This document shows positions 54,434 through 60,423 of a DNA stretch of 64,000 bases, piece by piece. The position numbers and the translations under genes were made by a program. Below the pieces are notes generated by a model, which did no database searches, was not told where the DNA came from, and saw only the letters and a program-made list of their open reading frames with translations. Location of the stretch: assembly GCF_000378465.1 (NCBI RefSeq), contig NZ_KB899925.1, forward strand, positions 1-64,000, read 5' to 3'. Numbering within the stretch: position 1 is the first letter of the stretch; every line of letters begins with the position of its first letter. This DNA comes from Elioraea tepidiphila DSM 17972. GTDB lineage: Bacteria > Pseudomonadota > Alphaproteobacteria > Acetobacterales > Acetobacteraceae.

Positions 54434-54463
54434 CTCCGCGGCGATCGGGTGATCGCCGCGGAG
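54434..54463. terminator. Strong stem-loop between convergent genes
   Basis: CTCCGCGGCGATC (54434-54446) and GATCGCCGCGGAG (54451-54463) form a 13-base perfect stem with a 4-base loop. It lies between the plus-strand small membrane protein gene and the minus-strand DUF1244 gene and can end both. Confidence 0.7.
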
Positions 54464-57664: not shown

Positions 57665-58057
57665 ATGGAGTTCAGGACACGCGTCGCCATGATTCTGCTC
57701 GCCACCGCGCTCGCGCAGCCGGCCGGTGCAGTCGAGGCGCCGTCGAGCCTGCAAGGCATCTGGTCGCCGGATCTGTCCTGCGACACGGCCGCGCTGCGCC
57801 ACATCGTCGGCCGGACGACGCTGGAATGGCGCGACGGCGGGGAGCGTATCGCCGAGGCCGATGTCCACTACCGCGTCCGCGGCAACGACATCGCCGCGAC
57901 GGTGCAGCAGGTACGGAATGGCGATGCCTCGCTCCGACCGGGCGATGTCGTGACCTACCAGAGGGTCGCTGGCGGGCTGAGGCCGCTCACGATCGAACGC
58001 AACGGGGCGGCGATCGACATCAGCCGACCGCGAACCTTCTTCCAGTGCCGCCGCTGA
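57665..58057 (+). CDS. Small secreted protein, tandem copy A
   Basis: Protein of 130 residues with a signal peptide (cleavage about AGAVEA). The mature part has GIWSPDLSC, LEWRDGGERI, DASLRPGDVVTYQRV and the end FFQCRR. Two cysteines, one near the start and one near the end of the mature chain, may form a disulfide. A compact beta-rich fold is likely. I do not recognise a named family. The next gene is a paralogue with about half of the residues identical by eye. An AGGAGGGAGGC site precedes the ATG, and pyk lies 46 bases upstream. Confidence 0.7.
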   Translation: MEFRTRVAMILLATALAQPAGAVEAPSSLQGIWSPDLSCDTAALRHIVGRTTLEWRDGGERIAEADVHYRVRGNDIAATVQQVRNGDASLRPGDVVTYQRVAGGLRPLTIERNGAAIDISRPRTFFQCRR

Positions 58058-58153: not shown

Positions 58154-58540
58154 ATGCGTCGACGACTCCGTGTGGCCGCGCTCCTGGCGTTGGCCGCGAG
58201 TGGGCAGGCCGCTGCCGAATCGCCCTCCGATCTGCGCGGCATCTGGTCACCCGACATCTCGTGTGCCGAGACGAGCCTCCGCCACATCATCGGTGCGAAC
58301 ACGCTGGAGTGGCGCGATGGCGGCAGGCGTCTCGTGCTGGCGGAGGTGCGCTTCATCATCCAGGCCGACCGCATCGCCATGCAGGTGCGCAGGGCCGAGA
58401 ACGGAGAGTCGCCGCTGCGTCCTGGCGACGTGGTGCAGTACCGCCGCGTCCCCGGCGGGATCAGGCCGTTGGTGATCGAGCGGGACGGCACCTCGACGGA
58501 CATTGCCCAGGTCAGGGTGATGTACCGCTGCCGGCGCTGA
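58154..58540 (+). CDS. Small secreted protein, tandem copy B
   Basis: Protein of 128 residues, a paralogue of the preceding gene. Shared blocks are GIWSPDISC, LEWRDGGRR, SPLRPGDVVQYRRVPGG and the end MYRCRR. It has its own signal peptide (MRRRLRVAALLALAASGQAAA) and keeps both cysteines. No catalytic motif is visible; a binding or structural role is possible. GGGAG precedes the ATG. The stop codon lies inside the first arm of the palindrome cluster. Confidence 0.7.
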   Translation: MRRRLRVAALLALAASGQAAAESPSDLRGIWSPDISCAETSLRHIIGANTLEWRDGGRRLVLAEVRFIIQADRIAMQVRRAENGESPLRPGDVVQYRRVPGGIRPLVIERDGTSTDIAQVRVMYRCRR

Positions 58541-58669
58541 TACCAGGCTGCCAAAGGTTATACCATTGGCAGCCCGGTATCGCGCGCAGGGCTGGTGTGG
58601 CGGCTGCGCGCCAAAGGAGACCTCATACCCGGCGCACGAAGGTGAAACCTTCGTGCGCCGGGTATGAGG
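58539..58669. repeat. Cluster of three palindromes
   Basis: Three stem-loops follow one another. The first has 16-base arms (58539-58554 and 58566-58581) with one mismatch and an 11-base loop. The second has 8-base perfect arms GCGCGCAG/CTGCGCGC (58582-58589 and 58604-58611). The third has 23-base perfect arms (58621-58643 and 58647-58669) with a 3-base loop. They lie between convergent genes. They may be a bidirectional terminator, a palindromic mobile repeat, or both. Confidence 0.8.
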
Positions 58670-58671
58670 CG

Positions 58672-60423
58672 TCAGCGCCGCCGGAGAAACACCAGCCAAG
58701 CAGCCAGGAGCAGGGCGCCCGCGAGATCCGCCCAGGCGATCGGCGCGACCAGCGCCGCCCCCGCGAGTCCCAGCAGCGCGCGATCGGGCGCCGCCAGCCG
58801 CCGCGCCAGCCACCCCTCCAGAGCCGCGGCGAGCGCCACCACACCGGCGAGCGTCGCGGCGAGCGCCAGCACGATCGACAGCGGATCGCCGATCAGCAGC
58901 AGCGCCGGCCGCCAGACGAAGCAGAACGGCAGCACGAAGCCGACGACCGCGAGTCGGCAGGCGATCACGGCGATGCGCAGCGGATCCGCACCCGCGATCG
59001 ACGCCGCGGCGAACGCCGCCACCGCCACGGGCGGCGTGATCGCCGACATCGAGGCGAAATAGACCACGAACAGGTGGGCCGCGAGCATCGGTACGCCGAG
59101 ATTGACCATCGCCGGCGCGGCCAGCACCGAGGCCAGCACGTAGACCGCCGGCGTCGGCATCCCCATGCCCAGCAGCAGCGTCACGCCCGCGGTGATCAGC
59201 ATGACCACGGGCAGCAGATCAGGCGCGAAGGAGAACAGCAGCGACGAGAACTTGCCGGCAAGATCGGTGATGGTGAGCGAGCCGACCACCAGTCCGGCGA
59301 CCGCGCAGGCGATGCCCACGGGCGCGGCGCGACGGGCCGCCTCGATCGCGGCGGTCAGGACGGTCGCTGCCGTGTGCAGCGGCGCGCGCGTGCGCAGCAG
59401 CAGGATGGCTGCCGCGATCACCACCGCAAGTCCCGCGCCGTAGACCGGCCGATCGGCGGACAGCACGAGCCACACCAGGGCGGCGATCGGCACCAGATGC
59501 CACCAGCCCGCGCGCAGCACGGCCCCGACCCGCGCGGTGGCGCCGTCGAACGCGCCGAGCCGATCCAGCTCCGCGCGCGCATGCACGGCGAAGAACACCG
59601 CGACGTAGTAGAGCACCCCCGTGAGCGCCGCCGAGGCGACGATCTCGGCATAGGGGATGTTGGTGAAGTCGCTCATCAGGAAGGCGGCACTGCCCATCAC
59701 CGGCGGCAGCAGCGCCCCGCCCGTGGAGGCCGAGGACTCCACCGCCCCGGCATAGGCCGGGCGGTAGCCGAGCCGCTTCATCATCGGAATGGTGAGCGCA
59801 CCGGTGGTGACCACGTCCGCGGTCGGGCTGCCCGAGATCGTGCCGTAGAGCGCGGACGAGACGACGGCCACCTTGGCCGGTCCGCCCGCCTGCCGGCCCA
59901 CCAGCGCGGCCGAGAGGTCGAAGAAGAAATCCCCGCCACCGGAACGGTCCAGCACCGCGCCGAACAGCACGAACACGTAGACCAGGAATGCAGCGACCGC
60001 GAGCGCGGGGCCGATCAGGCCGTTGGTCGTGAACACCAGATGGTCGAGGATCTCGGTGATGCTGAGCGGGCGATGGCCGAAAGCGCCCTCCAGCCGGTCG
60101 CCGAACACGGCATAGGCGAGGAACAGCAGCACCAGGACCGCGAGCGCCAAGCCGATCGTGCGCCGCGTCGCCTCCAGCACCAGCAGGATCAGCGCCGACG
60201 CCGCGATCAGATCGCCCACCGAGAGCGGGCTCACCATCGGCCAGCGCAGCGCGTGCGCCTCGGCATGGACCAGGAACCAGCCGACCGAGACCCAGGTCGC
60301 GGCGACGAGTCCCCAGGACGGCACGGACCGGCCGGTCGGGCGTTGCGGATTCCCCGTGACGGTCAGGAAGCCGATGGTCAGCACCGCGCCGAGGAAGACG
60401 AACAGGCTGACGGTGCGATCCAC
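58672..60423 (-). CDS. TRAP transporter fused permease (4TM/12TM type)
   Basis: Protein of 583 residues from GTG 60423. Many hydrophobic helices occur. SALYGTISGSPTADVVTTGAL and GGALLPPVMGSAAFLMSDFT (in parts) and LGMGMPTPAVYVLASVL are DctM-type motifs of TAXI-associated fused permeases. It imports substrate with sodium or proton gradients. The open frame continues upstream with a further hydrophobic helix (ALVGAVGAALSAFLLALALG) but has no ATG/GTG/TTG before the TAXI gene stop. The real start is uncertain; a CTG at 60543 is one candidate. Confidence 0.85.
   Translation of the reverse strand: MDRTVSLFVFLGAVLTIGFLTVTGNPQRPTGRSVPSWGLVAATWVSVGWFLVHAEAHALRWPMVSPLSVGDLIAASALILLVLEATRRTIGLALAVLVLLFLAYAVFGDRLEGAFGHRPLSITEILDHLVFTTNGLIGPALAVAAFLVYVFVLFGAVLDRSGGGDFFFDLSAALVGRQAGGPAKVAVVSSALYGTISGSPTADVVTTGALTIPMMKRLGYRPAYAGAVESSASTGGALLPPVMGSAAFLMSDFTNIPYAEIVASAALTGVLYYVAVFFAVHARAELDRLGAFDGATARVGAVLRAGWWHLVPIAALVWLVLSADRPVYGAGLAVVIAAAILLLRTRAPLHTAATVLTAAIEAARRAAPVGIACAVAGLVVGSLTITDLAGKFSSLLFSFAPDLLPVVMLITAGVTLLLGMGMPTPAVYVLASVLAAPAMVNLGVPMLAAHLFVVYFASMSAITPPVAVAAFAAASIAGADPLRIAVIACRLAVVGFVLPFCFVWRPALLLIGDPLSIVLALAATLAGVVALAAALEGWLARRLAAPDRALLGLAGAALVAPIAWADLAGALLLAAWLVFLRRR

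Follow-up and report, generated by a model that had tools for sequence, protein, structure and literature searches.

The window (the whole stretch of 64,000 nucleotides analysed here, from Elioraea tepidiphila DSM 17972) contains a run of three hairpins between two convergent genes. The upstream gene, on the plus strand, encodes a 128-aa protein that matches no Pfam model; the downstream gene, on the minus strand, encodes a permease of the TRAP transporter DctM type. The features of the locus are given below in the order of their first position, each with the evidence for it in parentheses.

58154..58540, plus strand: upstream gene, 128 aa, without Pfam match, its TGA being the insertion target (gene call, Pfam, empty site)
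58538..58540, plus strand: left copy of the target-site duplication, TGA, which is the stop codon of the upstream gene (sequence, gene call, empty-site alignment)
58539..58581, plus strand: palindrome 1 (left end), 20-nt arms with 18/20 paired, 3-nt loop (arm complementarity, covariation)
58541..58664, plus strand: mobile element proper, 124 bp, TACC...GGTA (empty site in Elioraea sp. Yellowstone, target-site alignment of copies)
58582..58611, plus strand: conserved core hairpin with an 8-bp GC stem (fold, core alignments)
58590-58603, plus strand: core loop, GG-CT-GG-TGT-GG-C-GG (core alignments)
58612..58620, plus strand: purine-rich linker, CAAAGGAGA (sequence, alignment of copies)
58621..58669, plus strand: palindrome 3 (right end), 23-nt perfect arms that include target-site duplication and flank bases, loop GAA (palindrome scan)
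58665..58667, plus strand: right copy of the target-site duplication, TGA (sequence, target-site alignment, empty-site alignment)
58672..60423, minus strand: convergent downstream gene, TRAP transporter DctM-type permease (PF06808, E = 1.9e-82)

The upstream gene is the second of two adjacent paralogous small genes (57665-58057 and 58154-58540, about 130 aa each, neither with a Pfam match), and it is in this second gene that the insertion lies.

Palindromes and predicted fold

Palindrome 3 pairs arms at 58621-58643 and 58647-58669, each 23 nt and 100% complementary, just as a sequence-only reading of this DNA had described the last of three palindromes; the loop is 3 nt. A scan of the full window finds no longer perfect arms in the 64 kb, the runner-up reaching only 13 nt. 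(This second-longest perfect palindrome of the window lies at 54434-54463.) Palindrome 1 pairs 58539-58558 with 58562-58581; the same reading had recognized it and given it 16-base arms, which are in fact 20 nt long and 90% complementary. Between the two sits a middle hairpin, with a stem of 8 bp (58582-58589 with 58604-58611). Folded as RNA, positions 58530-58680 reach -112.9 kcal/mol, against -63.9 +/- 4.3 for shuffled sequences (z = -11.3), and the minus strand gives z = -15.0; none of 200 shuffles folds as well. Chance palindromes are ruled out by the arm-length scan of the 64 kb together with the fold z-scores against shuffles.

The edges of the run fall where they had first been noticed, in one stop codon and close before another. 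Palindrome 1 starts with 58539-58540, the GA of the TGA stop codon at 58538-58540, and palindrome 3 stops at 58669, a short distance from the permease stop codon (58672-58674, minus strand).

Copies and distribution

A whole-genome search for further copies, as suggested in the sequence-only reading, finds 40 distinct places that match 58539-58672 (BLAST, own genome of 4.30 Mb in 56 contigs, with the second-strand matches of palindromes merged), so that the feature is not single-copy. The best full copies besides the window's own are 92-97% identical to it. A structure model (A1, R1) was built from 30 distinct copies out of three genomes, and R1 matches at least six further places of the own genome. 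By structure model the unit is present in 4 of 7 genomes of the genus (own genome included), and in 88 of 299 genomes, or 44 of 102 genera, sampled from Acetobacteraceae. The genome of Elioraea sp. Yellowstone (G006) carries many copies with an identical right end.

Searching named genomes with the core pattern returns at least 113 stretches. The matches listed are mostly from Acetobacteraceae (Roseomonas, Neoroseomonas, Rubritepida, Acidocella, Elioraea, Paracraurococcus and others), and some of those listed are from Hyphomicrobiaceae, Hyphomicrobium and Devosia assemblies. A class-wide core search matches 9 of 385 genomes, one of which is the own genome, leaving 8 outside Acetobacteraceae. 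At ten loci outside the family, inspected by eye, no TACC palindromes are seen, and the core hairpin or a weak look-alike is all that appears. A distant-mode search of 72,556 plasmid records gives no match to the element.

Partial and rearranged forms also occur. The left palindrome and core are kept and the right palindrome lost in L024, L025, L026, L029, L034 and L035, possibly through deletion inside the long hairpin. The core hairpin stands in tandem copies, with no palindromes between them, in L094, L100 and L139; it follows a TAA, with the left palindrome missing, in L133 and L146. In L300, L303, L304 and L308 it likewise has no left palindrome, and in other families it stands alone. At L300 it adjoins a tRNA gene (identified by eye), while at L308 the stem is altered on both sides and the loop is kept as GG-TT-GG-TG-GG-C-GG.

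Empty sites and target-site duplication

The site of the window copy is empty in Elioraea sp. Yellowstone. There, contig C300 of G006 reads CGCTGCCGGCGC-TGA-GGCTTCAGCG, with no element and a single TGA; both flanks of the query match neighbouring stretches of G006, and the alignment, CGCTGCCGGCGCTGAGGCTTCAGCG, contains one TGA. In the window the same TGA stands on either side of TACC...GGTA (58538-58540 and 58665-58667). Judged from these alignments, the window copy has evidently landed in the stop codon (TGA) of the 128-aa gene upstream of it, duplicating the codon and leaving the gene intact. What had been read as three independent palindromes is instead one repeated element, and the TGA copies at its two ends are target duplication that lies outside the element sequence.

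Empty sites were also sought for eleven insertions of G006, by joining the flanks of each and searching with the joined sequence. Clear empty sites with one TGA at a stop codon are found for L126 (in genome G000), L066 (G002), L061 (G000) and L096 (G000 and G002). The partner of L056 keeps one TGA with small indels, that of L116 in G002 is partly deleted, those of L061 in G001 and G003 show no TGA in register, and that of L106 in G004 reads AGA. (L106 is a coding-region insertion, an element with TGA duplication inside what by eye is an IS3-type orfA.)

The duplication was counted in 114 distinct elements: 75 come from a script run over retrieved loci that have both palindromes, and 40 were picked by hand from places matched by R1, with one duplicate removed. 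Since R1 was trained on TGA-ended copies, the hand-taken part may favour TGA-ended matches. An identical trinucleotide is present at both ends in 89 of the 114, from many species, and all 89 are TNA (TGA 64, TAA 11, TCA 9, TTA 5); the remaining 25 have no identical ends. With TNA at both ends in 96 elements, agreement in 89 compares to 48.6 in shuffles, and none of 10000 shuffles reaches 89. For example, in Acidocella STC_51 the seven elements flanked by TNA on both sides all agree, and three different trinucleotides are represented among them. No such correspondence extends to the trinucleotide on the inner side of the right palindrome. The agreement marks a 3-bp target-site duplication. The orientation bias, 64 TGA against 9 TCA, is not explained by neutral insertion; it may come from selection, from asymmetric target recognition or from the training of R1 on TGA-ended copies, possibly combined.

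One site is occupied in two species (L006:1500-1629 and L060:1463-1592), with flanks about 93% alike. Core and right palindrome are nearly identical between the two, and palindrome 1 is swapped for a species-specific version, a pattern that concerted evolution would produce, as would two insertions made independently into the same stop codon.

Conserved pairing and a G-rich core

The end palindromes have kept their pairing while their sequence was rewritten between species, and the central hairpin has been conserved; the comparison of copies establishes both at the level of sequence. Over 52 pairs, 95.5% of cells are paired and 20 pairs are changed on both sides. Double-change cells number 118, against 32 when shuffled, and covariation is 0.253, against 0.081 when shuffled (0/500) and at most 0.079 when slid. 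Inside any one genome the arms are nearly uniform, the rewriting being seen between species.

The core hairpin, unlike the arms, is nearly fixed in sequence. Among 47 loci from other genera, 45 have a loop with the pattern GG-YT-GG-N(2 or 3)-GG-Y-GG or a close approach to it (one of the 45 has TC for YT, and two are read on the opposite strand). The two exceptions are L269, where one GG tract is lost, and L276, where the pattern is interrupted. One pair close to the loop varies: it is C-G, G-C or A-U, plus one G-U and one mismatch, in an alignment of n = 46 that excludes L269 and L276 by construction.

Four GG tracts separated by loops of variable length, carried on a GC stem, suggest that the core could form a two-tetrad G-quadruplex stacked on a duplex, a hypothetical arrangement reminiscent of the thrombin aptamer. 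ViennaRNA, run with its quadruplex option, predicts a quadruplex in 16 of 24 distinct cores, the window core not among them, and in 222 of 1200 shuffled loops.

Stop codons and convergent genes

Two stop codons, TGA and TAA, fit the TNA pattern, and an element that enters one of them copies the stop without altering the protein. Of 39 copies counted in the own genome, 29 overlap the stop codon of the left (upstream) gene and 32 have convergent genes on either side. L021, which repeats the L004 copy, is left out of this count, and the window copy is in it, entered manually as overlapping a stop since the 128-aa gene had escaped the gene caller. The window has 136 non-disruptive TNA sites, 49 at stops and 87 intergenic, with at most 24 between convergent genes. 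Expectations drawn from such sites are 14.1 stop-overlapping and 6.9 convergent copies (binomial tails of 1e-6 and 3e-18), rough figures that depend on a single 64-kb window and on a gene caller of a simple kind, based on codon usage. Elements that end a called gene make up 45 of 64 of the TGA type and 5 of 9 of the TCA type in the wider set. The marked surplus of copies between convergent genes fits a transcription-blocking element, and insertions between co-directional genes seem to have been lost, which suggests that the element disturbs transcription.

These positions might mean that the element is now kept for a purpose, exapted as a bidirectional transcription terminator or insulator at whose hairpins polymerase coming from either gene would halt, or the 3' end of the mRNA would be shielded. 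We give this a substantial chance, somewhat below even. Such a role would suit the 32 of 39 own-genome copies between convergent genes and the very stable folds of both strands, and hairpin 3 on the minus strand has a partial T tail, GTCTCCTTTG, with 5 T in 8; the plus strand, however, has no T run after either hairpin. Terminator-like matches number 4, against 0.2 expected. The recent, near-identical copies of G006 show that position is set by insertion. Pairing kept while sequence changes also speaks for such a role, but recognition by a transposase could equally keep it. Termination or 3'-end protection is plausible, going by sequence features, as a side effect of the element.

Nature of the element and a proposed mechanism

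We are confident that the three hairpins make up a single copy of a MITE-like element of Acetobacteraceae that is dispersed and encodes no protein, and for which we propose the mechanism given below. The alignments establish that it is repeated, that it has fixed ends, TACC...GGTA, and that its TNA target is evidently duplicated on insertion. The sequence-only reading had offered a palindromic mobile repeat, REP- or MITE-like; dispersed copies, empty sites and target-site duplication bear out the mobility and the likeness to MITEs, and the REP half of the suggestion falls away. Dispersed near-identical copies, a target-site duplication of fixed length and empty orthologous sites are all as in a MITE. 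Terminal inverted repeats in common with an autonomous element are not found, the ends sharing TACC/GGTA only. No autonomous partner with TACC ends appears among PF01609 matches in G000, G006 and G002 on inspection of their ends, and a right-end pattern search of G006 returns element copies only (its two unexpected matches are degenerate copies). With no partner found in these searches, we call the element MITE-like and assign it to no IS family.

A DDE-type transposase acting in trans would recognise the palindromic ends and make a 3-bp staggered cut at TNA. Where the target is a stop codon, the insertion would recreate the stop, leave the protein unchanged, and so survive. Survival would be best between convergent genes because on both strands the triple hairpin probably disturbs transcription or the mRNA 3' end. 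A place between convergent genes would then simply be where the survivors are found, and a function as terminator or 3'-end stabiliser would come second.

A more ambitious version, which we consider unlikely, has the element family directed to stop codons. The transposase, which might act in step with transcription or termination, would prefer TGA in one orientation and so keep the gene intact, and the core, as a two-tetrad G-quadruplex (GG-YT-GG-N2/3-GG-Y-GG) on the 8-bp duplex, would serve transposition or block polymerase, giving the visited genes new 3' ends.

The MITE-like element, as proposed, illustrates a simple and harmless lifestyle for a transposable element in a gene-dense, GC-rich genome: a TNA duplicator enters a TGA or TAA stop and rebuilds the stop. 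Many genes at once acquire a structured 3' end from it. Its species-specific arm sequences can be used for studying the coevolution of element ends and transposases, and its conserved G-rich core is directly testable by spectroscopy. The limited part of the literature that was searched holds no description of this element family that we could find.

Other assignments

Membership in the CIR elements of alphaproteobacteria, built of two arms and a linker with GANTC sites, is improbable. The portion of PMC2229807 drawn on here describes the Caulobacter CcrM-associated intergenic repeats as about 110 bp, with two long arms, a linker, and GANTC near the loop. The present element, likewise alphaproteobacterial and with two arms joined by a linker, resembles that description in design and size class, and 25 of 75 elements contain a GANTC at some position. 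The window copy has none, however, and the class-wide core search matched just 8 genomes outside Acetobacteraceae.

A stand-alone small RNA gene or processed RNA is very improbable. It would account for the strong covariation, but the covariation lies in mobile ends and is equally expected of DNA hairpins; moreover, the element has no promoter-like site, and the site is empty in a relative. The processed RNA put forward in the sequence-only reading finds no specific support, Rfam yielding no match to the element at the gathering threshold and only weak ones far below the cut-offs.

We give almost no credence to a REP/BIME-type repeat spread by a RAYT (Y1) transposase: the element is palindromic and extragenic, in tens of copies soon after stop codons, as REPs are, but membership is rejected because PF01797 (Y1_Tnp) has no match in the own genome (the same search is positive in 6 of 14 control genomes) and because a 3-bp target duplication is present, which does not fit the RAYT mechanism. 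REPs, in the part of PMC3733652 used here, are 20-40 bp long, far shorter than the element, and carry a GTAG or CGTC tag at one palindrome end, with CGTC repeats missing in Acetobacteraceae.

Comparison with known systems

By analogy, the element works like a MITE; it is best seen as a variant with features of its own, closest in design to CIR, as far as a description of CIR can tell. RIME1 of Rhizobium is about 100 bp and has two large palindromes, and the element is like it in both respects, a likeness to the description of RIME1 rather than to its sequence. A point of difference is that the element has no match in the 72,556 plasmid records.

The IS1031 subgroup of the IS5 family, according to the part of PMC12016507 consulted, prefers 5'-TNA-3' and makes a 3-bp direct repeat, and the 3-bp TNA duplication of the element agrees with this. 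An insertion sequence of G006 (L223:1190-2490) encodes DDE_Tnp_1 and DUF772, has ends TGAGACCTGTGCGCGGGAG, and shows a TGA duplication. Its insertion point is precisely the terminal TGA of an element copy, which is itself at the stop codon of a gene that by eye is response-regulator-like. Its ends are TGAGACC..., not TACC..., and within the search, which covered PF01609, it has no terminal repeat in common with the element.

Bacterial MITEs, of which the part of PMC2229807 used here reviews Correia/NEMIS, RUP, ERIC and YPAL/RU-2, provide the nearest general model. Like them, the element is shorter than 200 bp, encodes no protein, and has structured ends, a target-site duplication, many copies and empty sites in relatives. 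Unlike the MITEs so described, it is GC-rich and has two separate end palindromes with a conserved GC hairpin; its duplication is a 3-bp TNA where theirs is commonly TA, and its insertion into stop codons is very frequent.
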